Below, one piece after another: positions 25,379 through 52,216 of a stretch of DNA of 64,000 nucleotides; the first letter of the stretch is position 1; each line of letters opens with the position of its first letter. This stretch comes from Runella slithyformis DSM 19594 (lineage in GTDB: Bacteria; Bacteroidota; Bacteroidia; Cytophagales; Spirosomataceae): NCBI RefSeq assembly GCF_000218895.1, contig NC_015703.1, positions 5,469,001 through 5,533,000 on the forward strand, in the 5' to 3' direction. A program made the position numbers and the translations under genes. The notes below the pieces were generated by a model. The model saw only the letters and a list, made by a program, of their open reading frames with translations. It made no database searches and had not been told where the DNA came from.

Positions 25379-25379
25379 A

Positions 25380-26321: not shown

Positions 26322-26491
26322 GTTTAATATTTTTTGGATAATGCGTATCAATCGTTCAAATATCTACAGATAAAGTGATAGTATTGAGCCAATTATTTTG
26401 AATTTTGGTTACTTCTATAACTATTTTTATATTTTTAATTATCTCTATTTCAATTATATAATTCATAAATAAAGAGTTTTCTACTATTTGT

Positions 26492-32649: not shown

Positions 32650-32981
32650 TGCTGAATGTTGAAAGCGTAAATAGTACGTTGTTTTTATACGCCGGTAGCG
32701 TGATACATCCACCGCGCCTGAAATAGGCATTAAATCGGTAAAGTTATTAAATCTCCATTCATAACCAATTGAAGAGTCATGAAAGTAACTCCCCAAAAAT
32801 CGGTGCTCGACAGGCGGGCCTTCAAACACCGAAAAAGAATGCCTTTCCGAACAATACAGTCTGTTGAAATCCGTAAAATGCAGTTAAATTACGACGATTT
32901 TGAAATAACTGCCCAAATGCGGTTCATCACAAAGCGTCTTTTTGACAAAAAGTACTATCTCTAAGTCTATCATTTATACGT
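32650..32981. other. 332-bp divergent control region
   Basis: It lies between the IclR gene and the alcohol dehydrogenase gene, so it should carry promoters for both. No ORF beyond the frame-open extension of the IclR gene was seen. AGTACTATCTCTAAGTCTAT (32951-32970) has AGTACT and TCTATC words that resemble the GATAG repeats upstream of susC. Confidence 0.4.
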
Positions 32982-35089: not shown

Positions 35090-38000
35090 ATGAAAATGAC
35101 ATTTACATGTAAACCAACCCAATGGTTATGGGCACTAATGCTGCTTTGGACAACCGGCACTTTTGCGCAGACCATAAAAGGAAAAATCATTGATGAAAAT
35201 CAACAGGGGCTGCCGGGAGTGAATGTGGTAGAAAAAGGCACCGCCAACGGAACCTCAACGGATGCCAACGGAGCCTTTTCTATCAATGTGACCGGAAAAG
35301 AGGCTGTGTTGGTTCTTTCGTTTGTCGGATACACTCCGCAGGAAATTTCAGTCAATAACAGAACATCGCTCAACGTCACGATGAAGACCGACAACCGGCT
35401 TTTGAATGAAGTCGTGGTAGTGGGATATGGCACCCAGAAAAAGAAGGACCTGACCGGCTCCATTGCCTCCGCCGACTTGGTGGCCTTCAAAGAATCGCCC
35501 AACGTGAGCATTCTCCAATCCCTGAAAGGTTCGTTGCCGGGTTTGACCATCAGCCAAACCAACCGCGCGGGCGATGAGCCTGCCATCAATATTCGGGGTA
35601 CTTCTACCCTCAACGGAAATACGGCTCCGCTGATTATCGTAGACGGGATTATCTTTAACGGTCGTCTTTCCGACATCAACCCTTCGGATGTGGCCAGTGT
35701 GGATGTATTGAAAGACCCCAGCAGCAAGGCTGTTTATGGCTCGCAAGCTGCTAATGGTGTGGTGCTGGTCACGACTAAAACGGGTCGCACGGCTCAAAAG
35801 CCATCCATCACCTATTCAGGAAGTTATGCCATTTCGAACCCGACGGTGAATGCAAAGTTGTTGCGCCGTGATGCCTTTTTAGAAAAAATCAGAGACATTA
35901 ATTATTTGAATGCCTTCACCAAAGAGTCGGGTTATACAGCCGCAAACCCCGCTTGGACATTTGCCAACTCTGAACTCTTTCCCGTTTCCTTAGCGGGTGT
36001 AAACTCCACCAACGACTACGATTGGTATAGCGATTTGACCCAAAATGCATTGATTACCAATCACAACTTGAGCATTTCGGGTGGGTCAGACAAGACCAAC
36101 TATTTTATGTCGGGTGGTTATACCAACGAAAAAGGATTAATCAGAAACGACGATTATGGCCGCTATACAATACGTATCAATTTGGATACAGAAGTAACCA
36201 AATGGCTTACATTGGGAGCAAATACCTCCGGTTCTTTTACGAATTTCTTCAAAGATGCTCCTGATATGAACTCTATCGTGGGCACCAACCCATTGGTATT
36301 GCCAAGAGATGAAAACGGTAATTTTAGAATCAACCCCATTGGCGATTTTCAGGTAAATCCGTTTTTATCGGCCGAAAACGACCGCTACGAAGTACAAAGC
36401 CGTTTGGTAGGTAATTTTTTCGGGATTGTTCGCATTCCGAGCATTCCGGGTTTTAGCTATCGTCTGAATTTTGGCCATAATCTCAAATATTTCAAGAACT
36501 ATGCGGCAAGTATTTACGGTGCGGGTCAGACGGGGTCAGCTTCCAAAAACGATGCGACACAATACGAGCAAACATTGGACAATATCTTCAACTACAAAAA
36601 GAGCTTTGGTAAGCACAATATTGATGTCACGGCTTTGTACGGTTACAACATTGCCAAATTTAATAACACTGCCGCTTCGGGTACCGGTTTTTCGGATCTG
36701 AACCTGTCGTATAACAGCTTGCAACAAGCTGAAATTCAGAAAATAAGCTCTTCTGCCTGGCAGGAAAACTTGCTGTACCAAATGGGAAGTGTAGCCTATA
36801 ATTACGGCAGCAAATACTTAGTCAAAGCTACGGTTCGTCGGGACGGTTTCAGTGGTTTTTCAGCAAATAACAAAACAGGTATTTTCCCTTCTATTGGCCT
36901 TGGTTGGGTGCTTTCAGAAGAAAGTTTCTTTAAAGTTCCCGGTATTGACTATCTCAAAATCAGAGGAAGTTACGGAGAAAATGGTAACAAAGTAGGGCGA
37001 TACAGCTCACTGGCAAGGGTGGCTTCGACCGACGATTCAAAATACGTTTTTGGCGACGGTGGTATGACATCTATCGGTCGGTCAGTAGCTTCATTGGCCA
37101 ACGCCGATCTCAAATGGGAACGTACTCGTGGTATCAACATCGGGCTTGATTTTGCCATTTTGAAAAACCGTATTGATGGCAATATCGAATATTATAATTC
37201 AAACACCAACGACCTGCTATGGCAACAAACGCTGCCCCAAACCTCGGGTTTCGCCAATGTATTTACCAACTTGGGTCAAATCAATAACACAGGTATTGAG
37301 TTTATGCTGCATGGCCAGCCCATCAAAACCGGCGATCTTTCTTGGGATATAACTGTAAACTTTACCCGCAACCGAAACAAAGTGGTCACGATTTTGGGTG
37401 AAGATAAAAACCAAGATGGCGTAGAAGACGACCTCATAGCCAGTGGTTTGTTTATTGGAAAGCCTATTGGAACAATTTACGACTACAAGACGGCGGGTAT
37501 TTATCAACTGGCCGACGAAAAATTGGCGGGTTTTCAAGCGGGAACCTACCGCATTGAGGACCTAAACAAGGATGGTAAAATTACAGCTGCCGATGATCGT
37601 CAGATTTTGGGTAATACCGAACCAGCGTATCTGTTTGGTATTCAAAATACCGTATCCTATAAGCAATTTACATTGCGGGCATTTATAAACTCTGTTCAAG
37701 GAGGTAAAAGCAGCTACTTGGCAGGAAACGCCCCCGCCGGAAACTATGGTACACCCGGAAATGCCACCAATTCCAACTGGTTTGATTTTACTGATTTTTG
37801 GTCGCCACGCAACCCCAATGGAATCCACCCCAATCCCTGGGTACCTACACCTGCCGGTGGAAGAGAATTTTTCCAGCGCAATTTTGTGCGTTTGCAAGAC
37901 ATCTCACTGTCCTACAATCTTTCAGAAAAAACTGCTAAGAAAATCGGGGCATCCAATGCAAAACTATTTGTAAGTGGTAAAAACCTACTTACACTTACCA

Positions 38001-38101
38001 AATGGAAGGGCTGGGATCCGGAAGTGGGCTTAGGTGTAAGTTCTGTCAATGCCTTCCCGGTAATGAAGTCCTATTCTTTTGGCGTTGAAATCACATTTTA
38101 A
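35090..38101 (+). CDS. susC: SusC/RagA-type TonB-dependent outer-membrane transporter
   Basis: 1003 residues. The signal peptide covers about 1-26 (ending TFAQ), the carboxypeptidase-regulatory-like domain about 28-105 (GKIIDENQQGLPGVNV, SFVGYTPQEI), and the plug starts at LNEVVVVGYGTQKKKDLTGSI. The 22-strand barrel runs to the C-terminal SYSFGVEITF. With the SusD partner it forms the pedal-bin complex that imports oligosaccharides across the outer membrane using TonB energy. Length is normal for the family. The gene is followed 64 bp later by susD. It is the import gateway of the polysaccharide locus. Confidence 0.92.
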   Translation: MKMTFTCKPTQWLWALMLLWTTGTFAQTIKGKIIDENQQGLPGVNVVEKGTANGTSTDANGAFSINVTGKEAVLVLSFVGYTPQEISVNNRTSLNVTMKTDNRLLNEVVVVGYGTQKKKDLTGSIASADLVAFKESPNVSILQSLKGSLPGLTISQTNRAGDEPAINIRGTSTLNGNTAPLIIVDGIIFNGRLSDINPSDVASVDVLKDPSSKAVYGSQAANGVVLVTTKTGRTAQKPSITYSGSYAISNPTVNAKLLRRDAFLEKIRDINYLNAFTKESGYTAANPAWTFANSELFPVSLAGVNSTNDYDWYSDLTQNALITNHNLSISGGSDKTNYFMSGGYTNEKGLIRNDDYGRYTIRINLDTEVTKWLTLGANTSGSFTNFFKDAPDMNSIVGTNPLVLPRDENGNFRINPIGDFQVNPFLSAENDRYEVQSRLVGNFFGIVRIPSIPGFSYRLNFGHNLKYFKNYAASIYGAGQTGSASKNDATQYEQTLDNIFNYKKSFGKHNIDVTALYGYNIAKFNNTAASGTGFSDLNLSYNSLQQAEIQKISSSAWQENLLYQMGSVAYNYGSKYLVKATVRRDGFSGFSANNKTGIFPSIGLGWVLSEESFFKVPGIDYLKIRGSYGENGNKVGRYSSLARVASTDDSKYVFGDGGMTSIGRSVASLANADLKWERTRGINIGLDFAILKNRIDGNIEYYNSNTNDLLWQQTLPQTSGFANVFTNLGQINNTGIEFMLHGQPIKTGDLSWDITVNFTRNRNKVVTILGEDKNQDGVEDDLIASGLFIGKPIGTIYDYKTAGIYQLADEKLAGFQAGTYRIEDLNKDGKITAADDRQILGNTEPAYLFGIQNTVSYKQFTLRAFINSVQGGKSSYLAGNAPAGNYGTPGNATNSNWFDFTDFWSPRNPNGIHPNPWVPTPAGGREFFQRNFVRLQDISLSYNLSEKTAKKIGASNAKLFVSGKNLLTLTKWKGWDPEVGLGVSSVNAFPVMKSYSFGVEITF

Positions 38102-38165: not shown

Positions 38166-39872
38166 ATGAAAAATAACCTATTTAAAATACTCCTTTTGGC
38201 AGGTGGAGTCCTGCTGAATTCAAGTTGTAACGAAGAAGAGTTTTTGAAAGAAGTACCGTTGGACTTTTACAGTCCCGAAAACTCTTTCATTAATGCCGGA
38301 AACTTTGAAGCTGCCCTGACCGATTTGTATTCGAGGGTGCGAGCTATTCAAAGTGTGGATGGAGGTGCAAACCTTTATTCAGAAGTACTCGGTACAGATA
38401 TTGCATTTAATGCCCGTCTGGACCAGTCTCGATTAGGAAGTTACACCGTTTCGCTCACTCCCCAAGGTGATATTCCACGTCAACACTGGATTCGTTGGTA
38501 CAAAATTATTGGCAATGCCAATACCATTATAGCAAGAGCGGCAACATCAAATGTTACAGAAGCCCAAAAGAAACAATTTGCCGCTGAGGCTAAACTTTTC
38601 AGGGCGTATGCCTATCATAAATTGGTACATTTATATGGTGGTGTGCCGTTGATATTGGAAGAAGTAAATACGCCAAGAACCAATTTTACGAGGGCTTCAA
38701 AAGACGATGTGTTGAAGCAAATTATTGCCGATGCTACGGAGGCTGCTGCAAACTTACCCAACGTAGATGCTGTAAAAGATGGCAAGTTGAGCAAAGCCGT
38801 AGCCAACCACCTTTTGGCCGAAACCTATATTGCCGTCAAAGACTACGACAAAGCCATTGCTGCCGCTACCGAAGTAATCGAAAAATCAAATCTGCGATTG
38901 ATGACCGACCGTTTTGGAAGTTTGAGAACCCAGCCTGGTGATGTATTCTATGATTTATTCAGGGTAGGCAATCAAAACCGCAAGGCGGGAAATATGGAGT
39001 CTATTTGGGTAATTCAATATGAGTTAGATGTAATTGGCGGTGTTTTGACCTCATCGGGTAGCCCCATGAATAACCTCGAACGAGTAGTAGCCCCGGCGGT
39101 TTTTTCTATCTCTGACCCAAGTGGCAGAGCTGCTCTGTTAGATAATGCGTCGGCATCAACGCTCAATAGTGGTGGTCGTGGTGTATCTTTCGTTCGCCCC
39201 TCTGATTACTGGACCTACGAAATCTGGGGCTTAGACCCTAAAAAAGACAACCGTAAACTGCCCGCCACGCTTACCGACATCAGAACATCACCTTTCAACA
39301 TTGTGCGTGATTTTGTTTATACCAATCCTGCCTCTCCAAATTTTGTGGGTAAAAGTTTGATTGATTTTCCTGCCCCCAACTGGATAGCTGCTTCTTGGCG
39401 TTGGTATCCGTATCCTTCAAAAGTAACTACTCCCGGTCAACATCCTGCGGGCGTGGTGCAGGATGCTGCTAAACTGACTTTGAAGACCACCGCCGGTCCC
39501 ACGTTTAGAGATATGTACATGATTCGTTTACCCGAAACGATCCTGCTGAGAGCGGAAGCGCAACTGCTGAAAGGCAACGCTGCCGCCGCCGCTGCCGACA
39601 TCAATTTGGTTCGCAACCGTGCCAAAGCAACACCCGTAACAGCCGCCGAAGTTACATTGGATTATATTTTGGACGAAAGAGCGCGTGAATTGATCTTCGA
39701 AGAAGACCGCCGCGTAACGCTCTCACGAATGGGTAAATTGGTGGAAAGAGTAAAAAAATATAACCCGCTCAATGCACCGAATATCCAACCGTTCCACGCC
39801 CTTTTCCCAATTCCTTTCTCCGAAATCGAAGCCAATAAAGACGGAAAATTGGAGCAAAATCCGGGGTATTGA
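38166..39872 (+). CDS. susD: RagB/SusD-family nutrient-binding lipoprotein
   Basis: 568 residues. The lipoprotein signal has Cys21 (LNSSC). The TPR-rich SusD core starts with EEEFLKEVPLDFYSPENSF and includes KKQFAAEAKLFRAYAYHKLVHLYGGVPLI, the hallmark of the family. Near the end YILDERARELIFEEDRRVTLSRMGKL is the conserved closing motif. It caps the SusC barrel on the cell surface and binds the glycan. A strong terminator follows at 39942-39971, which should limit read-through into the enzyme genes. Confidence 0.92.
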   Translation: MKNNLFKILLLAGGVLLNSSCNEEEFLKEVPLDFYSPENSFINAGNFEAALTDLYSRVRAIQSVDGGANLYSEVLGTDIAFNARLDQSRLGSYTVSLTPQGDIPRQHWIRWYKIIGNANTIIARAATSNVTEAQKKQFAAEAKLFRAYAYHKLVHLYGGVPLILEEVNTPRTNFTRASKDDVLKQIIADATEAAANLPNVDAVKDGKLSKAVANHLLAETYIAVKDYDKAIAAATEVIEKSNLRLMTDRFGSLRTQPGDVFYDLFRVGNQNRKAGNMESIWVIQYELDVIGGVLTSSGSPMNNLERVVAPAVFSISDPSGRAALLDNASASTLNSGGRGVSFVRPSDYWTYEIWGLDPKKDNRKLPATLTDIRTSPFNIVRDFVYTNPASPNFVGKSLIDFPAPNWIAASWRWYPYPSKVTTPGQHPAGVVQDAAKLTLKTTAGPTFRDMYMIRLPETILLRAEAQLLKGNAAAAAADINLVRNRAKATPVTAAEVTLDYILDERARELIFEEDRRVTLSRMGKLVERVKKYNPLNAPNIQPFHALFPIPFSEIEANKDGKLEQNPGY

Positions 39873-39996: not shown

Positions 39997-41457
39997 ATGA
40001 AGCTATTTGTAAGAAAATGCGTGTTTTTTACGGTAATTTCTCTGCTCATCGGTCTTGATGGAGTTGCTCAATTCATTGATACTTCCAACGAGCGCGTCAA
40101 AACACCGTTAAGCGTTTCGTACAAAAAGATCGGAACCCTGAAACCGCGTTCCACCAAAGAGATTGAAGCATCCCGTATCACGGTCGGTTGTGAAACCCTC
40201 GACCGCGACTTTACGGATTTTAACGGCTATAAAAACTACTTACCGCCCTTGGGCGTCAAAAAAATACGATTACAGGCCGGTTGGGCCAAATGTGAAAAAA
40301 TAAAGGGAGTGTACGATTGGAAGTGGCTCGACGAAATCATTGATTTTGCCGCGGCTAATCGCCTCGAACCGTGGCTGGAAACCTCCTATGGCAACCCCAT
40401 TTACGAAGGCGGCGGTGCGAAAGGCTTACTCAACAGTATGCCTACCTCACCTGAAGGTTGGGCGGCCTACGACAAATGGGTGGAAGCCTTGGTAACGCGC
40501 TACAAAGACCGGGTCAAAGAATGGGAAATATGGAACGAGCCGGACCATCCTATGCAAAAAAATGAGCCCGAAACCGTGGCGGAGATGAACATCCGTACCG
40601 CCGTAATCATCAAACGCATTCAGCCCGAAGCCAAAATTGCGGGACTGGCGTTTGCTTCCCATACCAATACGGCTTATTTGGAGCGATTCCTGAAACCGAT
40701 TGCCGAGCAGGGAAAATTAGACCTGTTTGAATGGATATCGTACCACAGCTATGCCTTTCGTCCCGAAGATTCGTACAAGGGAGTGATGGCCCTGAAAACC
40801 GTGATTGAAAAATATTCCAAAACCCTCAAACTTCGTCAGGGTGAAAACGGAGCCCCTTCGGGTTACATTCCGAGCTATGCCCTGGACAAGTATTATTGGA
40901 CCGAATACTCTCAGGCCAAGTACGACATGCGTCGATTATTGGGCGATTTGGGTAGAGATATTGAAACCTCGGTTTTTACCATTATTGATATTGCTTACGC
41001 CGGAAACCCGCCCGTGTTGAATATGAAAGGCCTCATCCAATCGGATTTTACCAAGGCGGCCATTCGGCCGAAAGTCGCTTATTATGCGGTACAAAATCTG
41101 GCGTCCGTTTTTGATAATACCCTGGAAGCCGCGCCCGGGTTTGCGTTCACCACCAATGCCTCCGAATCGGTTTCGGTCTTTGGGTATCAACACAAAAAGA
41201 CGAAAAAACAACTCATTACACTTTGGCTGGACGGAAACACACCCGGCAACACTTTTACCACCACCCCTACCGACATCACGATTGAAAACGGAAACTTCAG
41301 TAACCCTGTTTGGGTAGATCTGCTGACCGGCCACGTGTATGAAATTCCCAAAGCCCATTGGAGTAAATCGGGAAACAGCTACACATTCAAACAAATTCCG
41401 CTGTATGATTCTCCCGTTTTGATTGCTGATAAATCAATGCTGAAATTGAATAACTGA
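39997..41457 (+). CDS. Secreted clan GH-A glycoside hydrolase, paralogue 1 (GH39-like)
   Basis: 486 residues from the ATG at 39997; a TTG at 39970 lies inside the terminator. Signal peptide about 1-24 (ending GVAQ). The (beta/alpha)8 part has RLQAGWAKCEKIKGVYDW, the acid/base in EWEIWNEPD (Glu181) and the nucleophile in RQGENGAP (Glu283), matching GH39-like enzymes. A C-terminal beta domain includes PVWVDLLTGHVYEIP and ends DSPVLIADKSMLKL. It shares these motifs with the genes at 43483 and 44986. It overlaps the next gene by one base. The substrate, perhaps a beta-linked side chain, is not known. Confidence 0.8.
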   Translation: MKLFVRKCVFFTVISLLIGLDGVAQFIDTSNERVKTPLSVSYKKIGTLKPRSTKEIEASRITVGCETLDRDFTDFNGYKNYLPPLGVKKIRLQAGWAKCEKIKGVYDWKWLDEIIDFAAANRLEPWLETSYGNPIYEGGGAKGLLNSMPTSPEGWAAYDKWVEALVTRYKDRVKEWEIWNEPDHPMQKNEPETVAEMNIRTAVIIKRIQPEAKIAGLAFASHTNTAYLERFLKPIAEQGKLDLFEWISYHSYAFRPEDSYKGVMALKTVIEKYSKTLKLRQGENGAPSGYIPSYALDKYYWTEYSQAKYDMRRLLGDLGRDIETSVFTIIDIAYAGNPPVLNMKGLIQSDFTKAAIRPKVAYYAVQNLASVFDNTLEAAPGFAFTTNASESVSVFGYQHKKTKKQLITLWLDGNTPGNTFTTTPTDITIENGNFSNPVWVDLLTGHVYEIPKAHWSKSGNSYTFKQIPLYDSPVLIADKSMLKLNN

Positions 41458-43418
41458 TGAATGCTAAGCTGCTGATATATACGCTATTCTCCGTGAGTTG
41501 GGTCACCTTGCTGTCCGTGGGCTGTGTCTCACAGCCCGCTCAAGCTCAAAAAACCACAAAATCCATTTCCACAGAATCCATTGCTGAACTCGCCATTGAG
41601 CGGGGATTGAAAGAAATTGACTTGGGCATTTATGGCGGTACGCTATTTATGCACGGCTTGAGTGAGTTGGCGGTGCTGCAAAAAGACCCTAAAAACCTGA
41701 ACCGCGCCATTGAGCTATTTGGGAAATTCAAGACCAAAGAGATCAAAGGACGCGGGAGTTTTATTAGCTACGAAGCGGGCGGCAGCGGTGTGGCCTATCT
41801 GAATTATTTGAAAAAGTCGGACAAACTGAAAGAGCAGGCGGAGGAGTATGCCGACAAAATGTTCAAAAATCAAAAACGTACCTCTGAAGGATTATTGACG
41901 GCTCCGTGGCTCAAAGACAGCCTCGACCAGTTCATGATCGATTGTGCCTTTGCCGTAACGCCCTATATGCTGTACGCCGGCCTGAGCATGAACAAGCCCG
42001 AATACGTAGATCTGGCGGTTTTTGAAACCTTGGAAATGTTTAAAATCCTGAAAGACCCCAACGGCCTGATTCACCAGGGGCGGGGTTTTCAGGGATTGGG
42101 CAAGATTTCGGAAGACAATTGGAGCCGGGGAAATGGGTGGGGCGCTTTTGCGTTGGCGTTTTTAGTACGGGATTTACCCGATACTCACCCCAAGAAAAAA
42201 GAAGTGAATGAGCTCGCTAAAAATTTCTTCACAGCCATTTTGAAATTCCAAAATCAGGAAGGATTGTGGAATCAGGAAATGACGGAACATACTTCATTCG
42301 TCGAAACGTCGGGTAGTGGCCTGATGCTCTTTGGGTTGGGAATTTGTCTCGAAAAAAGAATCATTGACACATCCTATTTGCCGCAATTCATCAAAGGATT
42401 AAGCGGTTACACTTCCTACATCACGCCCGACGGCTCCATCAGCAATGTCACCATAGGCTGTTTGTGCCCCGGTAAAGGCACAAAAAAGGATTACATCAAA
42501 CATGCGTGGAAACTCAACGACATTCACGCGTTCGGCCCCGTGGTATTGGCCTTTACGCAAGCTGCAAAAATGGGCATTAAAGAAATTACCCCTGCCAAAA
42601 GCATAGGCTGTTATGTGACCGATTTCGGCAAACCCATGAAACCGCAGGCTTTTGTGCGCTACATGCCCGAAGCCAACGGAAATATCTGCTGGGAAAATGA
42701 CCGCATTGCCTTCCGCGTCTACGGCCCGCCCGTCAAACACCGGGTGAGCAGCGGGATTGATATTTGGACCAAATCGGTGGATTATCCCATTGTTTCCAAA
42801 TGGTATGATCAAAATAATCAGGGAAAATCCTACCACGATGACCACGGCGAAGGCAACGATTTTTACCATGTGGCATACGGCAGAGGATTGGGCGGTACTG
42901 CTGTTTGGCGAAACGGCAAACCCTACATTTCACAACCGTATGCCACTCACCGAATCTTAAAGAACACCGAAGAAGAAATTGCGTTTGAACTCCATTTTGA
43001 TGCTTGGGATGCCGATGGAATTAAAGTAAGTGAAAAAAAGGTAATCAGTCTGAAAATCGGGACCAACTTCTGCAAAGTCGTCAGCACATTTACCACGGCT
43101 TCAAAAGAACCTTTAACGATAGCCTTGGGGATTTCATACAGCAATAAACCCGAAATAATCAGCGACGCAAAAAAAGGGACCCTGACACTCTGGGAATCCT
43201 TTCAACCCCAAAACGGTGAATTAGGTACTACGGTTAGCGTAAAACCTGCTGATTTTAAAGCCTTTGGCGATTATGAAAAAGAAAAATATATGTTGATAAA
43301 AGCAAAATCAGGCCAACCCATTACCTATTATGTGGGTGCCGGTTGGAGCAAAGCCCCGCAGTTTAAAACTAAGCAGGATTGGTTGAATTACGTCAATGAA
43401 CAGCATTTTTTTAAGTAA
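41457..43418 (+). CDS. GH105/GH88-type unsaturated glycuronyl hydrolase fused to DUF4861 (lipoprotein)
   Basis: 653 residues. A lipoprotein signal is present (LSVGC, Cys about 23). The (alpha/alpha)6 barrel of GH88/GH105 covers about 40-375, with FISYEAGGSG, QFMIDCAFAVTPYMLYAG, DNWSRGNGWGAFALA and HTSFVETSGSGLMLFG. The C-terminal third matches DUF4861 (NDRIAFRVYGPPV, SYHDDHGEGNDFYHVAYG, GTAVWRNGKPYIS). GH105 enzymes hydrate the double bond of lyase-made unsaturated uronides and release 4-deoxy-5-keto-uronate. The fused DUF4861 may bind or act on the same oligosaccharide. The start overlaps the previous stop (TGATG). Confidence 0.85.
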   Translation: MNAKLLIYTLFSVSWVTLLSVGCVSQPAQAQKTTKSISTESIAELAIERGLKEIDLGIYGGTLFMHGLSELAVLQKDPKNLNRAIELFGKFKTKEIKGRGSFISYEAGGSGVAYLNYLKKSDKLKEQAEEYADKMFKNQKRTSEGLLTAPWLKDSLDQFMIDCAFAVTPYMLYAGLSMNKPEYVDLAVFETLEMFKILKDPNGLIHQGRGFQGLGKISEDNWSRGNGWGAFALAFLVRDLPDTHPKKKEVNELAKNFFTAILKFQNQEGLWNQEMTEHTSFVETSGSGLMLFGLGICLEKRIIDTSYLPQFIKGLSGYTSYITPDGSISNVTIGCLCPGKGTKKDYIKHAWKLNDIHAFGPVVLAFTQAAKMGIKEITPAKSIGCYVTDFGKPMKPQAFVRYMPEANGNICWENDRIAFRVYGPPVKHRVSSGIDIWTKSVDYPIVSKWYDQNNQGKSYHDDHGEGNDFYHVAYGRGLGGTAVWRNGKPYISQPYATHRILKNTEEEIAFELHFDAWDADGIKVSEKKVISLKIGTNFCKVVSTFTTASKEPLTIALGISYSNKPEIISDAKKGTLTLWESFQPQNGELGTTVSVKPADFKAFGDYEKEKYMLIKAKSGQPITYYVGAGWSKAPQFKTKQDWLNYVNEQHFFK

Positions 43419-43482
43419 TAATGAAACCATGGATGAAAAATCCGTACAAATCCGTGTTCTATTTAGTTATCATTAAAGTCTT

Positions 43483-44982
43483 ATGAATATTTACAAATTA
43501 CTGACGTTCAGTATTTTAATCGGATTGAGCAGCAGTTTCGCCCAAAAAATCGACACGTCGGCCAATCGGGTAAAGACGGAGTTTACCATTGCGCTGAAAC
43601 GAAACGGCACATTAAAACCCAAAAGCACGAGCGAGATAAAATCCTCCAATTGGCTGCTGGGCTGCGAAACCCTCGACCGCGACATGACGGATTATGAGCA
43701 ATACAAAGCTTACATCGCGCCTCTGGGCATCAAACGCTTACGAATGCAGGCAGGATGGGCCAAAACGGAAAAGGTAAAGGGAGTTTACAATTGGGCTTGG
43801 CTCGACAAAATCATCAATGATGCCGCTGCCCGCGGCTTTGAACCGTGGTTGGAAACAGGCTACGGAAACCCGATCTATCCGGGCGGCGGCGGCGTGAATT
43901 TGAGCGCCGGCATTCCCTCTTCGGAAGAAGCCCTCAAAGCCTGGGACAAATGGGTGGAGGCATTGGTGAATCGTTACAAAGATAAAGTTAAGGAATGGGA
44001 AGTATGGAATGAACCCAATTTTGGCGATAACGAGATCAACCAACCCGAAAAAGTAGCCGAACTGAACATCCGAACGGCCGAGATCATCAAACGTATTCAG
44101 CCCGAAGCTAAAATCTCGGGCCTGGCCATGGGCCACATTGACCTGAAATACGCCGATATTTTTTTCAAAACCATCCATGAAAAAAGCAAAATGAACCTGT
44201 TTGACAACATGACCTACCACGATTACGTCTACAATCCCGATTCCAATTATGGGAAAGTAGGTGAATTGAGAAGGGTTTTGGATAAGTACGCACCCAACGT
44301 CAAACTCCGTCAGGGCGAAAACGGCGCGCCCGCCTTTAACGGCGGAGGTAGGGGAGCGTTGGGTGATTATCAGTGGACCGAACTGTCGCAGGCAAAATGG
44401 GATATCCGTCGCATGTTGGGCGATCTGGGACACGACATCGAATCGAGCATTCTGGGCATCATTGACATGAATTACGGCGTCATGGCAGGGCCGATCAAAC
44501 TGCTGAATGTGAAAGGATTGATTGAGTCGGACTCCACCAAAAGAGCCCTTCGCCCCAAAATGGTCTATTACGCCATGCAACACGTCGTTTCCGTATTTGA
44601 CGATCATCTGGTACGAATTAAACACGTCGAAGACACCCACAATGTCAATATGAAAGTTAATGGAGACGAAGTACGCTACAACAAAGGCACCGACCGAAGC
44701 CTGGCCGTGTATGCCTACGAGCATAAAACCACCAAAAAACAGGTGTTTACCATTTGGAACAACGAATACATTCCAACGAATACCAATACGACGAAAAACA
44801 TAAATTTTACGGTCTTGAACGGCAATTTCGACCAACCGGTCTACGTCGATATGCTGACGGGAGGTATTTATGAAATCCCTGAGAATCAGTGGACTAAAAA
44901 AGAAAACAAATACACATTCAGAAATATACCTGTGTACGATTCTCCCATTTTGATTGCCGACAAATCGGTTTTAAAATACTGA
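43483..44982 (+). CDS. Secreted clan GH-A glycoside hydrolase, paralogue 2 (GH39-like)
   Basis: 499 residues with a signal peptide (about 1-20, ending SSFAQ). The fold and motifs are those of the gene at 39997: RMQAGWAKTEKVKGVYNW, EWEVWNEPN (acid/base) and RQGENGAP (nucleophile). The C-terminal beta domain ends DSPILIADKSVLKY. It has extra residues around AFNGGGRGALGDYQW near the active-site mouth and an insertion around HNVNMKVNGDEVRYNKG, suggesting altered specificity. It follows the GH105 gene and is 3 bp from paralogue 3. Substrate not known. Confidence 0.8.
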   Translation: MNIYKLLTFSILIGLSSSFAQKIDTSANRVKTEFTIALKRNGTLKPKSTSEIKSSNWLLGCETLDRDMTDYEQYKAYIAPLGIKRLRMQAGWAKTEKVKGVYNWAWLDKIINDAAARGFEPWLETGYGNPIYPGGGGVNLSAGIPSSEEALKAWDKWVEALVNRYKDKVKEWEVWNEPNFGDNEINQPEKVAELNIRTAEIIKRIQPEAKISGLAMGHIDLKYADIFFKTIHEKSKMNLFDNMTYHDYVYNPDSNYGKVGELRRVLDKYAPNVKLRQGENGAPAFNGGGRGALGDYQWTELSQAKWDIRRMLGDLGHDIESSILGIIDMNYGVMAGPIKLLNVKGLIESDSTKRALRPKMVYYAMQHVVSVFDDHLVRIKHVEDTHNVNMKVNGDEVRYNKGTDRSLAVYAYEHKTTKKQVFTIWNNEYIPTNTNTTKNINFTVLNGNFDQPVYVDMLTGGIYEIPENQWTKKENKYTFRNIPVYDSPILIADKSVLKY

Positions 44983-44985
44983 AAT

Positions 44986-46437
44986 ATGAAGATAGACTTA
45001 TTGTTTTTTCTTGCTCTCTTGCTATTTCGGATTTCAAATCCGAAATCAGGGGCTTCGGGATTTGAAATCCCGAACAGCGCCCCGCCCGCCCATGCTCAAT
45101 CAAATTGGAAGGAAATCGGCCAACTGAAAACCCGTGATGCCAAAGACATCAAAGGCAGCACGTGGAGTATCGGAGGGGAAACCCTGGACAGAGATTACAC
45201 GGATTATCAGTCCTACAAAACCTATTTGGGGCCGTTGGGAGCCAAGCGCATTCGCTTGCAGGGTGGCTGGTCAAAGTGCGAAAAAGTCAAAGGGGTGTAT
45301 GATTTTGCCTGGCTGGATGCCATCATTCCCGATGCAGCGGCGCGCGGTGTGGCGCCATGGGTAGAGTTATCCTACGGCAATCCCATTTACGAAGGTGGCG
45401 GCGAAGCCAAATTGGCCGGACACATTCCTACCTCAAAAGAAGGATTGGAAGCATGGGATAATTGGGTACGGGCGATGGTGACAAGATACAAAAACCAAGT
45501 GCCGCAATGGGAAATTTGGAACGAGCCCGACCTGAATCCCAAACATACAGGCAAACAAATTGCAGAGTTTTACGTCCGCACCGCCCGCATCGTGAAAAGC
45601 ATTCAGCCCGAGGCCAAACTCATTGCGTTGGGCATGGCGAGTATTACCCGACTCGATTTTACGCGGGATTTTATGGAATACCTCGAACAAAACAATGCGT
45701 TGGATCTAATTGATATTTTGACCTTTCACGGCTATCGCCACAACCCTGACACCTCGTATCCGCACATCGAACGGTTGCGCTCCATCGTGTGGAGTTACAA
45801 ACCGGAAGTAGTTTTTATGCAGGGCGAAAATGGTGCGCCTTCCCAGAAAAAAGGCACCACGGTAGGCGCAATGACCGATCAGGATTGGTCAGAACTCACC
45901 CAAGCCAAGTGGGATTTACGCCGAATGTTGGGCGACCACGGGCGCGGCATTGCCACCAACCTGTTCACCATCAGCGATATTCACTACGCCGCAGGCGATC
46001 ACATGGTGGGCATCAACTCCAAAGGTTTACTGAAAACCAACCCGGATAAAACCATCGAACGGCCCAAGCTGAGTTACAAGGCAGCCCAACACGTTTTCTC
46101 GTTGTTTGATGACCAAATCGAACTGACAAAAAACAAGCCAACCACCGATCAATCAACCGTTTACAGCTTTCAGTACCTACACAAACAAAACAAAGGAAGT
46201 CTGATCACGCTTTGGAGCGGCGAGGCACACCCGGCAGAAACCTACGAACCCAAATTGACCACGGTTACGGTGGAAGGCAATTTTAAAAATCCTGTTTTTG
46301 TGGATTTGATTTCGGGAAAAGTGTATGAAATCCCAAAAGACAAATTCAAAAAAGTGGGCAAACAGTTTATTTTTAATGAAATAACGGTGCCGGATTATCC
46401 CGTTTTGATTGCCGAAAAATCTGTTTTGAATTTCTGA
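44986..46437 (+). CDS. Secreted clan GH-A glycoside hydrolase, paralogue 3 (GH39-like)
   Basis: 483 residues. The signal peptide is odd: the hydrophobic MKIDLLFFLALLLF is followed by about 20 residues encoded by two palindromic repeats (45025-45074) before the likely cleavage at AHAQ. The catalytic domain has RLQGGWSKCEKVKGVYDF, QWEIWNEPD and MQGENGAP (acid/base and nucleophile). The C-terminal beta domain ends DYPVLIAEKSVLNF. It shares order and motifs with the paralogues at 39997 and 43483. The stop overlaps the start of the beta-helix gene (TGATGA). Confidence 0.8.
   Translation: MKIDLLFFLALLLFRISNPKSGASGFEIPNSAPPAHAQSNWKEIGQLKTRDAKDIKGSTWSIGGETLDRDYTDYQSYKTYLGPLGAKRIRLQGGWSKCEKVKGVYDFAWLDAIIPDAAARGVAPWVELSYGNPIYEGGGEAKLAGHIPTSKEGLEAWDNWVRAMVTRYKNQVPQWEIWNEPDLNPKHTGKQIAEFYVRTARIVKSIQPEAKLIALGMASITRLDFTRDFMEYLEQNNALDLIDILTFHGYRHNPDTSYPHIERLRSIVWSYKPEVVFMQGENGAPSQKKGTTVGAMTDQDWSELTQAKWDLRRMLGDHGRGIATNLFTISDIHYAAGDHMVGINSKGLLKTNPDKTIERPKLSYKAAQHVFSLFDDQIELTKNKPTTDQSTVYSFQYLHKQNKGSLITLWSGEAHPAETYEPKLTTVTVEGNFKNPVFVDLISGKVYEIPKDKFKKVGKQFIFNEITVPDYPVLIAEKSVLNF
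45025..45074. repeat. Two palindromes inside the signal-peptide region of paralogue 3
   Basis: 45025-45045 is a perfect palindrome of 10-bp arms (TTTCGGATTT/AAATCCGAAA) around C. 45054-45074 is a second one (TTCGGGATTT/AAATCCCGAA) around G. The two are near copies and resemble intergenic repeats. They encode ISNPKSGASGFEIPNS in frame, which is absent from the two paralogues. Confidence 0.75.
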
Positions 46438-48170
46438 TGAAGAAACTTTTGTCACATATAACTACCAAGAAGCGGTGGCTACGGCGTGCCTTCCCCGAAA
46501 CGGCACGAATAATTTGTGTACTGTTTTTACTATGTCAAAAATTAACAGAAGCTTATTCAACTACGTATTACGTAGCCACCAATGGCAATGACAGCAACGC
46601 CGGCACCAAAGATTTGCCCTTTGCTTCAATCGGCAAAGGAGCCTCTATCGCCAAAGCAGGAGATGTGGTGATAATCAAATCGGGAACGTATAAACCCACA
46701 ACCCGAATTCAACCCGCCAATTCGGGCACTCAAAATGCGCCCATTACTTTTATGGCCGAAGTGAACAACGAAGTCATTATTGATGGCAGCAATGCGGCAA
46801 GTCCAACGGCTACGGATCGGCTTGGTTTGTTTACGATTTTAGGTACAACCACCGTCACCCAAAATTGGATTGTCGTTGACGGAATACGCATCATCAGCTC
46901 CGCCTTTGCGGGGTTTCATGCCCGATATGCAACTAATATTACCATTAAAAATTGTAGTACATTCAATACCGGCGCTTCGGGAATCGTGGCCGCTAACTCA
47001 TCGAGTATTAAGGTTTTAAACAATAAAGTTCAGAAAGCCTGTCAAGCTGCCTCGGCTTCGCTGGGCACGAATGAGTGTATTACGATAGCATCGGTGGCTC
47101 AATTTGAAGTGGCCTATAATTCAGTCTCCGACCGTACAGTTGACTTAAATAATGGTGGCGAGGGCATTGATGCCAAAAATGAATGTAAAGACGGCAGCAT
47201 TCACCACAATACGGTATTTGATCTGGTACGGCAGGGGATTTACGTGGATGCTTATCAAAGAAATATAAATAATATTGATGTTTACGCCAATCGGGTTTAT
47301 AAATGCGGGGCAGGAATTGGGGTAGCCATTGAGGAAGGAGGCACGCTGACGGGCGTAAAAATTCACGATAACATCGTCTTCGATATTCCGAGGGCCGGCA
47401 TCCAAGTGCGTGGTTATTTGGTCAATGGACCCATGAAAGATGTATTTGTCTATCAAAACACGGTGGTTCGGACGGGTAATCTTCAAGGCATTACTTACGA
47501 AAACGCCGGTATATTGATAGATGCCGACCATCCGAATAACAGCAATATGGTGGTTAGAAATAACATCGTTGCTGAATGTGCCATTCAAATCAAAACCAAA
47601 ACATTTTCCTTTCTGACGGTGGATAATAACTTACTCTTTGGCACATCTTCCACCCCAAAACCCACCAACCCCAGCGTATTATACGGCAATCCGGGCACCA
47701 ACGCCATTTTGGAAAACCCCCTTTTTGAAAATACAGCCAATGCCGATTTCAGGCTAAAAGCAAATTCCCCGGCCATTGACAAAGCCGTTGGGACACCGCT
47801 TTCAACGATGGATTGCAATGATTTCTCACGCCCGGCACAAGGAGACTTAGGAGCAGTCGAATACCAAAAAATCGAGATTGTTTTAAGTGCCGAAAATCCA
47901 CAGGAAAAAAACAAAGACTTGATTCTTTACCCAAATCCGTCCAAGGGTATAGTAACTATGAGTTTGTACGCAGAAGCAGGAAAAACATTCCTGATTGATG
48001 TTTTGGATTCGCAGGGGCGTACTGTACAAAATACAAATTATGTTTCTTCCAACACAGGTCAAAATGTGGTCAATTTACCGACTGAACGGCTTGAAAATGG
48101 GACATATATTATACACATCATTAGTAAAGACGGAGATAGAATTTCTAAAAAATTAATGGTTCAGCAATAA
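46437..48170 (+). CDS. T9SS-secreted right-handed beta-helix protein, probably a polysaccharide lyase
   Basis: 577 residues with an N-terminal hydrophobic segment (RIICVLFLLCQKL). The opening YYVATNGNDSNAGTKDLPFASIGKGASIAKAGDVV and the following repeats of N-N-x-V/I strands are typical of pectate-lyase-like parallel beta helices. ANSPAIDKAVGTP marks the end of the helix. The last ~80 residues (LYPNPSKGIVTMSLYAEAG...NGTYIIHIISKDG...KKLMVQQ) form a type A sorting domain for the type IX secretion system, so the protein is probably displayed on or released from the cell. It would start depolymerisation outside. Confidence 0.75.
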   Translation: MKKLLSHITTKKRWLRRAFPETARIICVLFLLCQKLTEAYSTTYYVATNGNDSNAGTKDLPFASIGKGASIAKAGDVVIIKSGTYKPTTRIQPANSGTQNAPITFMAEVNNEVIIDGSNAASPTATDRLGLFTILGTTTVTQNWIVVDGIRIISSAFAGFHARYATNITIKNCSTFNTGASGIVAANSSSIKVLNNKVQKACQAASASLGTNECITIASVAQFEVAYNSVSDRTVDLNNGGEGIDAKNECKDGSIHHNTVFDLVRQGIYVDAYQRNINNIDVYANRVYKCGAGIGVAIEEGGTLTGVKIHDNIVFDIPRAGIQVRGYLVNGPMKDVFVYQNTVVRTGNLQGITYENAGILIDADHPNNSNMVVRNNIVAECAIQIKTKTFSFLTVDNNLLFGTSSTPKPTNPSVLYGNPGTNAILENPLFENTANADFRLKANSPAIDKAVGTPLSTMDCNDFSRPAQGDLGAVEYQKIEIVLSAENPQEKNKDLILYPNPSKGIVTMSLYAEAGKTFLIDVLDSQGRTVQNTNYVSSNTGQNVVNLPTERLENGTYIIHIISKDGDRISKKLMVQQ

Positions 48171-48175
48171 AAACC

Positions 48176-49681
48176 ATGAACGTAACCCGTCGTCAAATGC
48201 TTACTGCCACTACGCTTCTTGCTGCCTCTACGGCCTTTGGTCATTCAGAGCGTGAGGAGAGTTATGCGTACGTTTTAGCAAACGTCAAGGCGGGAAAAAC
48301 TTCGTTGCCCGATGATAAATACCTGCCTTTCGATTGGGCATTTTCTGAAATTTCTGCCGGGAATGAAGGCATAAAACTGTCTTGGAATCAGCCGTTTCCT
48401 CCTAAAAATCGGTTTGCTTCTTTACGTATCACGAGTGCAACGGACGTACGGGAAATCTTGGTTTTGGAAGTAAAAACCGCGAAAACGGGCAAAAAAATAG
48501 CTGATTGGGATCTGCGATTTGCGGCGTTGTTGCAGCCTTTTGAGTTGCAAATTCCCCAAGAAGATTTACAAGCCATTTTTGACGAAGGTATTATTCTGAA
48601 AATGGTAAAAGGTACCAAACCTTTTTGGTTTTTTACCAACAATCATTCCGAGAAAACCGCCCCGAAAGCCTATTTACCTCACTTATTGATTTACGAAAAA
48701 GGAACAAATAAAGACGCCGAATCGTCGGACCGCTGGAAAGAGCGTTTACTGTCGCTCGAATCGTTGCAAACGTTTGGTTGGCAGCAAGGAATTGTCTGGG
48801 ACGGTTTGCTGGAAATGAGCAAAAAGTCAGCACGGGCAAAAACGGTTCTGGAGCAGCAATTGGCGTTGTATTTTGCGAATAATAGCTTGGTATACTGCAA
48901 TTTAAACAATATCAAAACGGTCGAAACAATCCATACGGTCGAGTCCATTTTACCCTTTGCGATTTTAGCCCAAACCAATCCAACGCACCCGCTTTTAAAA
49001 ACAGCCATTGCTTTTTGTGAAGCCCACGCCAATGCAGAAGGCGTCATTGCCGATGGAAAGGGTACTGATCGAATGCTGAAAACCGAAGAATGCTACACGG
49101 TAAGTTATCCGTTGGCGGTATTGGCAAAAACCTTGAACCGTCCCGATTTGGCCCGATTAGCCATCAAAACGTTACAATCACGAATTTCTATTCTGGAAAA
49201 AGGCACCGGCATTTATCAACGCGGTACGGAGCAGGGCGAACTTTTCTTTGAAAATTGGAGTCGCGGTGTGGCTTGGTATTTATTGGGATTGGCCAAAACC
49301 TTGGTGCATTTACCGGAAAGTGAAGAGAAAAAATCGCTTCGTATTTCTTTCCAAAAAGCCGTTGACAAAGTGCTCCCCTACCAACAATCCAACGGGCTTT
49401 GGTTTGCCTTTTTTCACCGACCCGAAACAGGCTTGGAAACCTCCGGCACGGCAGGCATTGGGGCGGCTTTGACCTATGGATACCAAAACGGTTTGCTCAA
49501 TAGAAATTCAAAAAAAGCAACTGAAAAGGCTCAAAGCGGGCTTTTGCCTTACCTCACACCCGATGGCTATTTAACGGGAACTGCCCAGGTAAACAAAGGC
49601 GGTGATGCCCTGCAACAAAATGGATTTCGCGTTATTTCACCTTATACTTTAGGCTTTTCAGCCCATTTTGTAACCACATAG
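48176..49681 (+). CDS. Exported GH105/GH88-type glycuronyl hydrolase, second copy
   Basis: 501 residues. The N-terminus NVTRRQMLTATTLLAASTAFG resembles a Tat signal. An N-terminal beta-rich section of about 170 residues precedes the (alpha/alpha)6 barrel, where ENWSRGVAWYLLGLAKTL and GLETSGTAGIGAALTYGYQNGL match the WSRGxxW and ETSG motifs of GH105. It is divergent from the GH105-DUF4861 gene, and the substrate pocket segment differs. It likely removes unsaturated uronate from another oligosaccharide of the same glycan. The stop TAG ends in the first of two direct repeats. Confidence 0.75.
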   Translation: MNVTRRQMLTATTLLAASTAFGHSEREESYAYVLANVKAGKTSLPDDKYLPFDWAFSEISAGNEGIKLSWNQPFPPKNRFASLRITSATDVREILVLEVKTAKTGKKIADWDLRFAALLQPFELQIPQEDLQAIFDEGIILKMVKGTKPFWFFTNNHSEKTAPKAYLPHLLIYEKGTNKDAESSDRWKERLLSLESLQTFGWQQGIVWDGLLEMSKKSARAKTVLEQQLALYFANNSLVYCNLNNIKTVETIHTVESILPFAILAQTNPTHPLLKTAIAFCEAHANAEGVIADGKGTDRMLKTEECYTVSYPLAVLAKTLNRPDLARLAIKTLQSRISILEKGTGIYQRGTEQGELFFENWSRGVAWYLLGLAKTLVHLPESEEKKSLRISFQKAVDKVLPYQQSNGLWFAFFHRPETGLETSGTAGIGAALTYGYQNGLLNRNSKKATEKAQSGLLPYLTPDGYLTGTAQVNKGGDALQQNGFRVISPYTLGFSAHFVTT

Positions 49682-49792: not shown

Positions 49793-51469
49793 ATGAATAA
49801 ATTACAAACCCTTGATTACGTAGCCATCTTACTTTACATGGTCATGGTGTCCGGGATTGGTCTGTATCTCGGCCGATTCGTCAAAAACATCAACGATTAT
49901 TTTAAAGGCGGCAATTCGGTTTCGTGGGTAGCCAACGGCATCAGCAATTTTATGACCATGTTCAGTACATCCATTTTTGTGGCGTATGCGGGCATTGCCT
50001 ACACGCATGGCTTAGTGGCGTTGACCGTGATTTGGTGCTCGGTTCCGCCTTCGGTTTTTGCGGCACTGGTGTTGGCTAAACGCTGGCAACGGGCAGGCAT
50101 CATGAGTCCGGTGGAGTTTTTGGAAACCCGATTCAACGCCCCCGTTCGACAAATGCTTTCGTGGGGTGGGGTGGGTTTTAAGGTGTTGGACGAGATGATC
50201 AAACTCTACGCCATCGGGCTTTTTGTGGCAACGGCCACCCAAATCCCACTCGAAACGGCCATTCTTTCCTGCGGTATCGTGGTTTTGCTCTATACCGTGG
50301 CGGGTGGTTTGTGGGCAGTGGTCGTGACCGATGTGGTGCAGTGCATCATTTTAGGATTAGCAACGATTATTTTATTGCCGCTATCGTTGCAGGCGGCGGG
50401 GGGCTTTTCCAATCTAAGTGTACAACTGCCCGAACACATGACCTTTACCAACGGCCCCAAAGGCCAACCCATCTATTTGATGGTGTATTACATCATGGTT
50501 TTGATAAAATTTTGCGGCAATTGGGCCTTTATGCAGCGGTTTTACAGCGCCGAAACGGAATCCGATGCGCGCAAAACGGGCTGGTTGTCGGCGGCTTTGT
50601 TTTTGGTCTTTCCCATCATCTTTTTATTGCCCGCCATTGCCGCTCGGGTGGTTATCCCCGAATTAAAGGACCCTGAAATGGCGTACGTGAGCATTTGCTT
50701 AAAGCTATTGCCTCAGGGATTGATGGGATTGATGATCTCGGCCATGTTTGCCGCTACAATGTCCACGCTAAGTGCCGAATACAACGTAACCGCCAGCGTG
50801 ATTACGAGCGATATTTACAAACGACTCTTCAACCCTCATGCCACCTCCAAACAACTCCTGTTGATGGGCAGAGTTTCGACCATTGCCCTGGGATTGATGG
50901 TGACCGGCGGGGCCCTCTTTGTCGGTGGATTTGGCGGAGCTTTTGAAGCCAACAAACTATTTACCGGACTTTTTGCCATTCCGATGGTGATTCCGTTGGT
51001 GTTTGGAATCCTGATGCGTAAGCCCAACCCCACCGGGGCCATCGGTGCCGTAGTAGGCGGTGTAGTTGTGGGCCTGGTTTTGAATGGTTTTTCAGGGTTA
51101 TCGTGGGAAATAGCCACATTGATCGAAATGGTCGTTTGTTTCCTAATATTCTGGCTATCAGGACTTATTACAAATAAAGACCAAGCCTACAACCAAGGGG
51201 TAGCGGCTTTTTTTGCTAAATTGGAAATACCCATTTCAAAGGTAAAAAAGGCAACTGTAAATTCAATGCAACCAATTCTGCAACGGTTATACGGCGTGGC
51301 GTTAGCCGGTACCGGCCTACTGTTTGTGGTCATCGGTATTCCTTCCGTGGGCGTTTACAGCGGAAAAATGGCCATGACAGCGGGTTTGCTCTGCTTGATT
51401 ACGTCCTTCTTTTTGTTTAAAAAGAAGAAGAAAGAACCTACTCAAAAGCAGGTAGGGCAAGTTCATTAA
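49793..51469 (+). CDS. Sodium:solute symporter (SSS/SLC5 family)
   Basis: 558 residues with about 14 membrane helices. The family pattern is seen in DYFKGGNSVSWVANGISNFMTMFST, LYTVAGGLWAVVVTDVVQCIILG and MSTLSAEYNVTASVITSDIY. It imports a small solute with sodium across the inner membrane. As the only inner-membrane transporter of the enzyme run, it probably takes up the monosaccharides or uronate products made by GH105 and the glycosidases. The exact solute is unknown. Confidence 0.85.
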   Translation: MNKLQTLDYVAILLYMVMVSGIGLYLGRFVKNINDYFKGGNSVSWVANGISNFMTMFSTSIFVAYAGIAYTHGLVALTVIWCSVPPSVFAALVLAKRWQRAGIMSPVEFLETRFNAPVRQMLSWGGVGFKVLDEMIKLYAIGLFVATATQIPLETAILSCGIVVLLYTVAGGLWAVVVTDVVQCIILGLATIILLPLSLQAAGGFSNLSVQLPEHMTFTNGPKGQPIYLMVYYIMVLIKFCGNWAFMQRFYSAETESDARKTGWLSAALFLVFPIIFLLPAIAARVVIPELKDPEMAYVSICLKLLPQGLMGLMISAMFAATMSTLSAEYNVTASVITSDIYKRLFNPHATSKQLLLMGRVSTIALGLMVTGGALFVGGFGGAFEANKLFTGLFAIPMVIPLVFGILMRKPNPTGAIGAVVGGVVVGLVLNGFSGLSWEIATLIEMVVCFLIFWLSGLITNKDQAYNQGVAAFFAKLEIPISKVKKATVNSMQPILQRLYGVALAGTGLLFVVIGIPSVGVYSGKMAMTAGLLCLITSFFLFKKKKKEPTQKQVGQVH

Positions 51470-51517: not shown

Positions 51518-52216
51518 ATGTCTTATTTACAAAACAAAGTAGTGTTCATTACGGGCGCATCGAGCGGAATCGGTAAAGCCACGGCGCTGATGCTGTTGGA
51601 AGCAGGTGCCAAGGTGTTTGATTTCAGTCGTACGCACCAATTGTCCGATGAAGTTTCGCACGAAAATCTTCGCTCTTTCAAAGGTGATGTCAGCGTGGAA
51701 GCGGAGGTGATTGCGGGCTTTGCGGCCTGTATCGAAGCCTTCGGCACCGTCGATGCCCTGCTCAACAATGCCGGTATGGGTGTTTTGACCACCGATCTTT
51801 CCACCACCGATCTTGATACGTTTGAACAAATGATGAACGTGAACGTTCGGGGCGTATTTCTCTGCAACCGCGAAGCCTTAAAAATCATGAAAGCCAACAA
51901 AGCGGGCCATATCCTGACGGTGATTTCGATGGCGGGCCAACGCACCAATCCAAACGCTCCGGTGTATTGCGCGTCCAAATTCGGAGCTCGGGGACTGAAC
52001 AGCGGCCTCGCCGACCAAACCTTAAAACTCGGCATCAAAGTAACCGACATCAACCCCGGCCCAACCGACAGCAATTATTGGGGCGACCGTCAGGTGCCGC
52101 GCGAAAAATTCCTGAAACCGGAAGACGTGGCGCGGGTCATTGTATTTGTATTGAATCAGCCGGAATACGTCCTGATTCGGGAAATCAATTTTGATAACAT
52201 GAAATTTTTAGCGTAA
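51518..52216 (+). CDS. Short-chain dehydrogenase/reductase
   Basis: 232 residues. The cofactor motif is GASSGIGK, NNAG is at about 87-90, Ser is in VISMAGQ and Tyr/Lys in YCASK. There is no C-terminal VDGG motif. The end VIREINFDNMKFLA is like the SDRs of the sepiapterin-reductase/3-ketoacyl type. It is probably NADP-dependent and reduces an oxo group of the uronate-derived product (DEHU-like). It shares one base with the next gene (TAATG). Confidence 0.8.
   Translation: MSYLQNKVVFITGASSGIGKATALMLLEAGAKVFDFSRTHQLSDEVSHENLRSFKGDVSVEAEVIAGFAACIEAFGTVDALLNNAGMGVLTTDLSTTDLDTFEQMMNVNVRGVFLCNREALKIMKANKAGHILTVISMAGQRTNPNAPVYCASKFGARGLNSGLADQTLKLGIKVTDINPGPTDSNYWGDRQVPREKFLKPEDVARVIVFVLNQPEYVLIREINFDNMKFLA

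Follow-up and report, generated by a model that had tools for sequence, protein, structure and literature searches.

PslG, a glycoside hydrolase (GH) of family 39 from Pseudomonas aeruginosa, has the Psl exopolysaccharide as its substrate and is not known to lie in a locus of the SusCD/uronate kind. Activities described for GH39 include those of beta-xylosidase, alpha-L-iduronidase and PslG-type endoglycosidase, among others. UxaC, mannonate oxidoreductase and UxuA together form the D-glucuronate isomerase route. The structure of GH39 enzymes is treated in PMC7242879 and PMC6933502 and the degradation of ulvan in PMC13050008 and PMC8360166, all of which are drawn on here as excerpts. The present analysis concerns three GH39-like genes (copies 1, 2 and 3; Table 1) in a stretch of 64,000 nucleotides from Runella slithyformis DSM 19594 (NC_015703.1, positions 5,469,001 to 5,533,000 of the forward strand), referred to as the window. 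We consider it rather probable that they diverged long ago within a single deep GH39-like family and that they belong to a SusCD-type locus whose target is a polysaccharide containing D-glucuronate and probably lacking sulfate.

Family assignment and predicted fold

The open reading frames of the three copies contain no internal stops (a TTG at position 39970 is an alternative start for copy 1), and the encoded proteins share 56% (copies 1 and 2), 45% (copies 1 and 3) and 46% (copies 2 and 3) identity, far above chance. Each contains one WNEP and one QGENGAP motif, which supply the glutamate pairs given in Table 1, and the C-terminal tails are similar (IADKSMLKLNN, IADKSVLKY and IAEKSVLNF in copies 1, 2 and 3, respectively). 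These motifs and the DKSVLK-like tails had been described in an earlier account of this DNA made from its letters alone (the sequence-only reading), and were verified.

Assignment by Pfam alone was ambiguous. The GH39 profile was matched at 36.0, 32.7 and 40.0 bits (curated cut-off 26) over 163-183 of its 472 positions, and the GH42 profile at 21.1-22.9 bits, barely over its cut-off of 21 and spanning 29-38 residues of a 376-position profile. The GH42 trimerisation domain had no Pfam match in the three copies, nor had the apiosidase (GH140) profile at E 0.01, which leaves the copies outside both families by these tests; the latter profile matched 2 of 44 family members (best E 0.0035). At E 0.01 none of the copies had a match among the NCBIfam models.

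The ambiguity was resolved by fold and by profile-profile comparison with hhalign, which took in GH39, GH10-like, GH42 and GH140; the resulting probabilities were 98.0% for GH39 (E 1.5e-13), 78% for GH10-like, 24.3% for GH42 and 7.2% for GH140, and 0.5% for GH26 as a single sequence. When a 109-member profile was searched against solved structures, PslG ranked first (E 1e-12), tied with the GH39 xylosidase 4ekj (1.2e-12). Copy 2 was modelled with AlphaFold2 (mean predicted local distance difference test, pLDDT, 93.3) as a barrel with a C-terminal beta domain, and the fold matches of the model were headed by PslG (Z 30) and BcGH39 (Z 29.4), with other GH39 and GH1 enzymes at 25-27; identity to the solved GH39 enzymes was 12-19%. 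E177 and E279 of copy 2 are invariant across the 109-row alignment, and sequence and model together display the clan GH-A arrangement of a predicted barrel with the NEP glutamate after strand 4, a glutamate at strand 7 and a C-terminal beta domain.

Profile search, fold and hhalign all put GH39 nearest, and for this reason the GH39-like label of the sequence-only reading was retained; judged by alignment and model, the three predicted enzymes are a deep, remote GH39-like branch of clan GH-A, adjoining PslG by fold. The same reading had suggested an unclassified GH-A subfamily, with structure prediction and comparison of family models as checks. These were carried out in part (structure of copy 2; profiles of GH39, GH42 and GH140) and found GH39 nearest, while the unclassified status is plausible because of the missing NCBIfam match and the low identity to solved GH39 enzymes. 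It is possible that the branch is remote enough for a separate family or subfamily.

Age of the paralogues and distribution of the family

In one genome collection 488 stretches matched the family at E 1e-3, of which the best 80 were kept, corresponding to 75 loci. A 118-row tree (from a quick IQ-TREE run, with Shimodaira-Hasegawa-like approximate likelihood ratio test (SH-aLRT) supports only) placed copies 1, 2 and 3 in separate clades (A1, A2 and A3) of 21, 40 and 22 rows, each with a support of 100, and left six rows outside the named clades. Orthologues within the clades occur in Dyadobacter, Spirosoma and Runella, among others. A Verrucomicrobiota/Lentisphaerota group is sister to the copy 3 clade (support 92), and in five loci one of its members stands beside one from a second group of this kind. 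Clades A1, A2 and A3 occur together in the window and 5 other loci, A2 with A3 in 14, A1 with A2 in 5 and A1 with A3 in 2. Across the multi-copy loci (33 fetched, plus the window) the nearest row lay within the same locus for one copy alone, on a long branch (L024); two further loci (L061 and L070) contain either a pair of rows of the same kind or rows without assignment, and local duplication may have occurred there.

Because the clades are separate and well supported and the clade sets vary across loci, the three genes are, on this phylogeny, old paralogues kept together or reassembled rather than products of local expansion within the present genome. The tandem duplication of the sequence-only reading does not hold as a recent event, which is ruled out by the tree: each copy belongs to its own supported clade with orthologues elsewhere.

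Within the taxonomic family of the organism 12 of 61 genomes, its own included, matched at E <1e-40, and in the whole phylum at least 2 of 395, again with its own, matched at E 1e-40 (a lower bound, up to four candidates per genome being scored). The genome itself contains copies 1-3 and one canonical GH39 gene at a separate place. The genes of the window recur at 72-93% identity in one locus (L027) whose contig is labelled Alphaproteobacteria, probably through a binning error.

Uronate gene sets beside the family

The 75 loci were sorted by tblastn counts into type X, with UxaC or UxuA, and type Y, with the heparinase II/III-type protein (HepII) or a close relative of the short-chain dehydrogenase/reductase (SDR) SDR2. 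Type X was found in 24 loci and type Y, which is that of the window, in 16, with both in none, so that the same outer enzymes pair with either of two gene sets, never together in the 75 loci. An SSS-family symporter and an RraA-like aldolase are present in 31 loci (15 type X and 16 type Y). The type X set is completed by UxaC, a mannonate-oxidoreductase-like SDR and UxuA, and the type Y set by SDR2 and the heparinase II/III-type protein, joined in 8 loci by the alcohol dehydrogenase ADH2, which among the 75 loci is confined to type Y, and in 7 by a KduD-like SDR. KduD was found in 7/16 type Y and 0/24 type X loci, and D-mannonate oxidoreductase in 21/24 type X and 0/16 type Y loci; a representative of the latter enzyme from a type X locus scored 355.6 against a cut-off of 281. 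Six further loci of the same taxonomic family had SDR2 in four and X genes in none, two being uncallable, one of them short. The same SusCD type was found with X genes in one locus (L009) and with Y genes in another (L011).

As a control, 16 other GH39-type loci of the phylum were examined, and UxaC, UxuA, RraA, SDR2, KduD and HepII were present in 0/16; at a laxer threshold SSS was found in one and SusC in two. Since the GH39-like family goes with X or Y genes and the other GH39 loci with neither, the substrate most likely contains D-glucuronate.

The heparinase-type protein of type Y is predicted to adopt a PL15/PL17/heparinase-type fold (polysaccharide lyase families; 147 residues have a pLDDT under 50), and has both an exo-type alginate lyase and dermatan sulfate epimerase among its best matches; on this model lyase activity is likely. 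No signal peptide was evident in the protein of the window when read by eye. The window organism has a UxaC gene at another genome site, flanked by candidates for uxaB and kdgK that were likewise picked by eye.

Active-site surroundings

Four clades were compared on a rough map of the barrel, the loops being taken from the secondary structure of the copy 2 model and not from coordinates. Positions fixed within each clade yet different between clades numbered 33, of which 29 were in the barrel and 12 of these (41%) in strand-end loops, which account for 120 of the 316 barrel residues (38%). The sequence-only reading had the copies differing specially around the active-site mouth, and this was not borne out, as clade-specific positions show no excess there compared with the rest of the barrel. 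An excess in the loops (36/72; Fisher P =0.019) was instead observed for the 72 barrel positions among the 84 common to all four clades; in copy 2 numbering the common loop residues include E62, R66, K94, E96, Y127, N129, Y132, W175, H246, W298 and K344, together with the catalytic E177.

The sequence-only reading suggested stepwise trimming of branched side chains, with split specificity. Because all clades have the same core of the site, the data agree equally well with a single glycone whose leaving group varies, and we infer one glycone with different acceptors for the three copies. A true split, in which the copies act on three different sugars removed in succession, would draw on the 33 differing positions, such as 142 (N/A/G in A1/A2/A3), 247 (S/D/G) and 251 (R/N/N), but neither the distribution of these positions nor the conserved loop residues (R66, K94, E96, Y127, N129, Y132, E177 and H246) favour it, and, of the 74 fetched loci represented in the tree, 39 have only one copy, with the caveat that many of the contigs are short; we regard a true split as distinctly unlikely. 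This alternative and those below lie partly inside the frame of the explanation preferred here.

Companion genes and the nature of the polysaccharide

Companion genes in the 75 loci, each labelled from at most a few representatives scanned with Pfam, were GH115-like (15 loci), GH10-like (13), GH38-like (6), GH26 (2) and GH92 (2). They suggest that glucuronate is combined with neutral partners that vary from host to host. The GH10-like and GH115-like companions would suit exo-beta-xylosidases acting on glucuronoxylan, the ordinary GH39 activity, with the glucuronate catabolism serving the side chains; the tie of 4ekj with PslG agrees with this, and in the excerpt of PMC13050008 the GH39 enzyme of a proposed ulvan locus is taken as a beta-xylosidase. 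Such an activity is nevertheless improbable, given that PslG and BcGH39 come ahead of the solved xylosidases in the fold ranking and that other GH39 loci lack a uronate context. The two GH105-type genes and putative lyases also have no known role on xylan.

The three copies may instead be endo-acting, in the manner of PslG or the ulvan endo-rhamnosidase, cutting a backbone of rhamnose or mannose plus glucuronate in which each copy recognises different repeats. The two nearest folds, PslG and BcGH39, are both described as endoglycosidases with a large groove in the excerpt of PMC6933502, that of PMC8360166 reports an ulvan-degrading endo-rhamnosidase that is placed in GH39 but has rather low identity to the rest of that family, and GH105, lyase and GH115-type companions are found both here and in the proposed ulvan locus as excerpted from PMC13050008. 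However, a sulfatase signature was absent from the window and present in 1/75 loci, with a pattern that recovered 5/8 control sulfatases. Because such signatures are nearly absent, ulvan itself was rejected as the substrate and the polysaccharide is probably unsulfated; endo action in general is somewhat unlikely, though of the alternatives to the preferred explanation it is the one that we take most seriously.

In a Runella locus (L026) a GH115-like gene lies between SusD and GH105, the position of copy 1 in the window, and GH115 had no match in the window's genome. Replacement of copy 1 by this gene was rejected, as no exclusion was seen among 15 relative genomes (copy 1 at >=70% identity with the short GH115-like gene in 4, copy 1 alone in 4, the GH115-like gene alone in 3 and neither in 4). 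The short GH115-like protein (L026:5956-8016) recurs with the family, also in Verrucomicrobiota; its open frames in relatives are 685-811 amino acids long and score 178-208 bits, compared with 866-995 amino acids and >430 bits for canonical GH115.

In three Dyadobacter loci (L043:5334-7946, L044:4935-7547 and L048:5476-8157) the copy 3 orthologue is fused in one frame behind a protein of ~430 residues, which nine other loci, two of them Verrucomicrobiota, encode as a separate gene (truncated at the end of the locus in one case). Searches of Pfam (E 1e-4), NCBIfam (E 1e-8) and PDB sequences (E 1) gave no match to this protein, which may be a partner enzyme, perhaps, to the eye, a beta-propeller.

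Proposed pathway

In the explanation preferred here, each GH39-like enzyme would act outside the cytoplasm by a retaining double-displacement mechanism, with the same sugar in subsite -1 for all three and differing positions that fit another leaving group or chain position. One or more lyases and the GH105 proteins would take off unsaturated uronate, and the GH39-like enzymes would cleave the remaining saturated bonds beside, or of, glucuronate. Small uronides would be imported via the SSS symporter and, in this genome, pass from a cytosolic heparinase-type exolyase to SDR/KduD and the RraA-like aldolase; in relatives free glucuronate would pass through UxaC, mannonate oxidoreductase and UxuA. 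A shared glycone that is glucuronate itself, in a beta-glucuronidase-like activity, is our leading guess but a tentative one, closely followed by endo-cutting or removal of a neutral sugar adjoining glucuronate.

A bolder proposal, which we consider very doubtful, is that the GH-A family is both new and glucuronate-releasing, and that SSS, SDR2, RraA-like, cytosolic heparinase-type, KduD and ADH2 proteins constitute an undescribed alternative to the UxaC/UxuA route in dealing with the same product. The cytosolic lyase would make a 4,5-unsaturated uronate from 4-O-substituted glucuronate, which would then be reduced and cleaved by the RraA-like protein without phosphorylation; the lyase might act on an aldobiouronate or even, releasing methanol, on 4-O-methyl-glucuronate.

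Several observations weigh against the preferred explanation. Neither X nor Y genes were found within the stretch examined in 35/75 loci, some of them short. SDR2 orthologues occur in 16/16 type Y and 0/24 type X loci, but type Y is defined by HepII/SDR2, so this holds partly by construction; the exclusion of X and Y (P =0.0016) is not a clean probability, the loci being the best 80 of 488 matches and of shared ancestry. The 16 control loci comprise ten strong and six weak Pfam matches, and among 44 family members at E 0.01 GH39 matches 36 and GH42, weakly, 43. One substrate for all loci is unlikely because the neighbours vary (GH10-like, GH26, GH38-like, GH92 and GH115-like). We also know of no activity recorded for any member of the family.

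The preferred explanation would link a widespread GH39-like branch to glucuronate polymers. The label 'GH39-like', which is as much as the sequence gives by itself, would thereby be extended to a concrete class of substrate and to a question about the pathway that can be tested.

Organisation of the locus

Table 1. Genes of the GH39-like locus and its surroundings (window positions)
Feature	Position	Strand	Remarks
GH39-like copy 1, clade A1	39997..41457	+	486 amino acids; acid/base E181, nucleophile E283 (by motif)
GH39-like copy 2, clade A2	43483..44982	+	499 amino acids; acid/base E177, nucleophile E279 (by motif)
GH39-like copy 3, clade A3	44986..46437	+	483 amino acids; acid/base E180, nucleophile E281 (by motif)
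GH88/GH105-type protein	41457..43418	+	putative unsaturated uronyl hydrolase; C-terminal DUF4861; between copies 1 and 2
Right-handed beta-helix protein	46437..48170	+	type IX secretion system (T9SS) sorting domain; putative secreted lyase
GH88/GH105-type protein	48176..49681	+	second in locus
SusC-like TonB-dependent receptor	35090..38101	+	
SusD-like surface binding protein	38166..39872	+	
SSS-family sodium:solute symporter	49793..51469	+	
SDR oxidoreductase SDR2	51518..52216	+	possible reductase of uronate or 4-deoxy-L-erythro-5-hexoseulose uronate (DEH)
RraA-like aldolase family protein	52216..52905	+	possible 2-keto-3-deoxygluconate (KDG) aldolase
Heparinase II/III-type protein	52907..55003	+	PL15/PL17-like fold; mean pLDDT 73.3
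Zinc-type alcohol dehydrogenase ADH2	55545..56558	+	541 bases after preceding gene
KduD-like SDR	34033..34803	-	320.3 bits, below cut-off 338.85
IclR-family regulator	31909..32829	-	

Downstream of SusC/SusD the genes from 39997 to 49681 are tightly packed (gaps of -1 to 64 bases). With gaps of only -1, 64, 3 and -1 bases around copies 1-3, the genes probably form a single transcription unit, which, with the GH88/GH105-type gene in place between copies 1 and 2, agrees with the operon of the sequence-only reading. At its N-terminus the beta-helix protein resembles a PL9 rhamnogalacturonan lyase as well as a PDB entry named 'xylosidase'. The nearest solved structure to the RraA-like protein is 5ir2 (E 5.7e-51), deposited as 'Cellulase'; the families of the query are aldolase/RraA. 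Elsewhere in the window (22764-26351) genes for an ADP-ribosylglycohydrolase, a PfkB kinase and a ureide/sugar permease adjoin one another; relatives of the kinase and permease lie near the GH39-like family in L014, and a relative of the ADP-ribosylglycohydrolase in L028.

Comparison with described enzymes

Among the literature matches listed there was no study of this GH39-like family. PslG (4zn2, 5bx9 and 9g17) is the best fold match of copy 2, with the same barrel and C-terminal beta domain (Z 30.0-30.4 over 377-378 residues; best alignment Z 30.4, 378 aligned, 3.0 A), but shares only 16-19% identity with it. BcGH39wh2 of Bacteroides cellulosilyticus WH2 (5jvk) is the second fold match (Z 29.4, 395 aligned, 3.7 A) and the best single-sequence match of copy 2 (E 1.6e-08); it differs in its 17-18% identity and, as described in the excerpt of PMC6933502, in having beta-sandwich domains at both ends. 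The GH39 beta-xylosidases (2bs9, 1px8, 8i0x and 4m29) have the clan, the glutamate pair and the beta domain in common with the three copies (Z 25.5-26.4), at 14-18% identity and a lower fold rank, while other GH39 genes of the same phylum stand in unrelated surroundings. The GH39 endo-rhamnosidase of ulvan degradation, apparently from Formosa agariphila and compared by description only (excerpt of PMC8360166), resembles the present enzymes as a low-identity GH39 within a uronate-polymer system with lyases and GH105, and differs in that its substrate is sulfated and marine.
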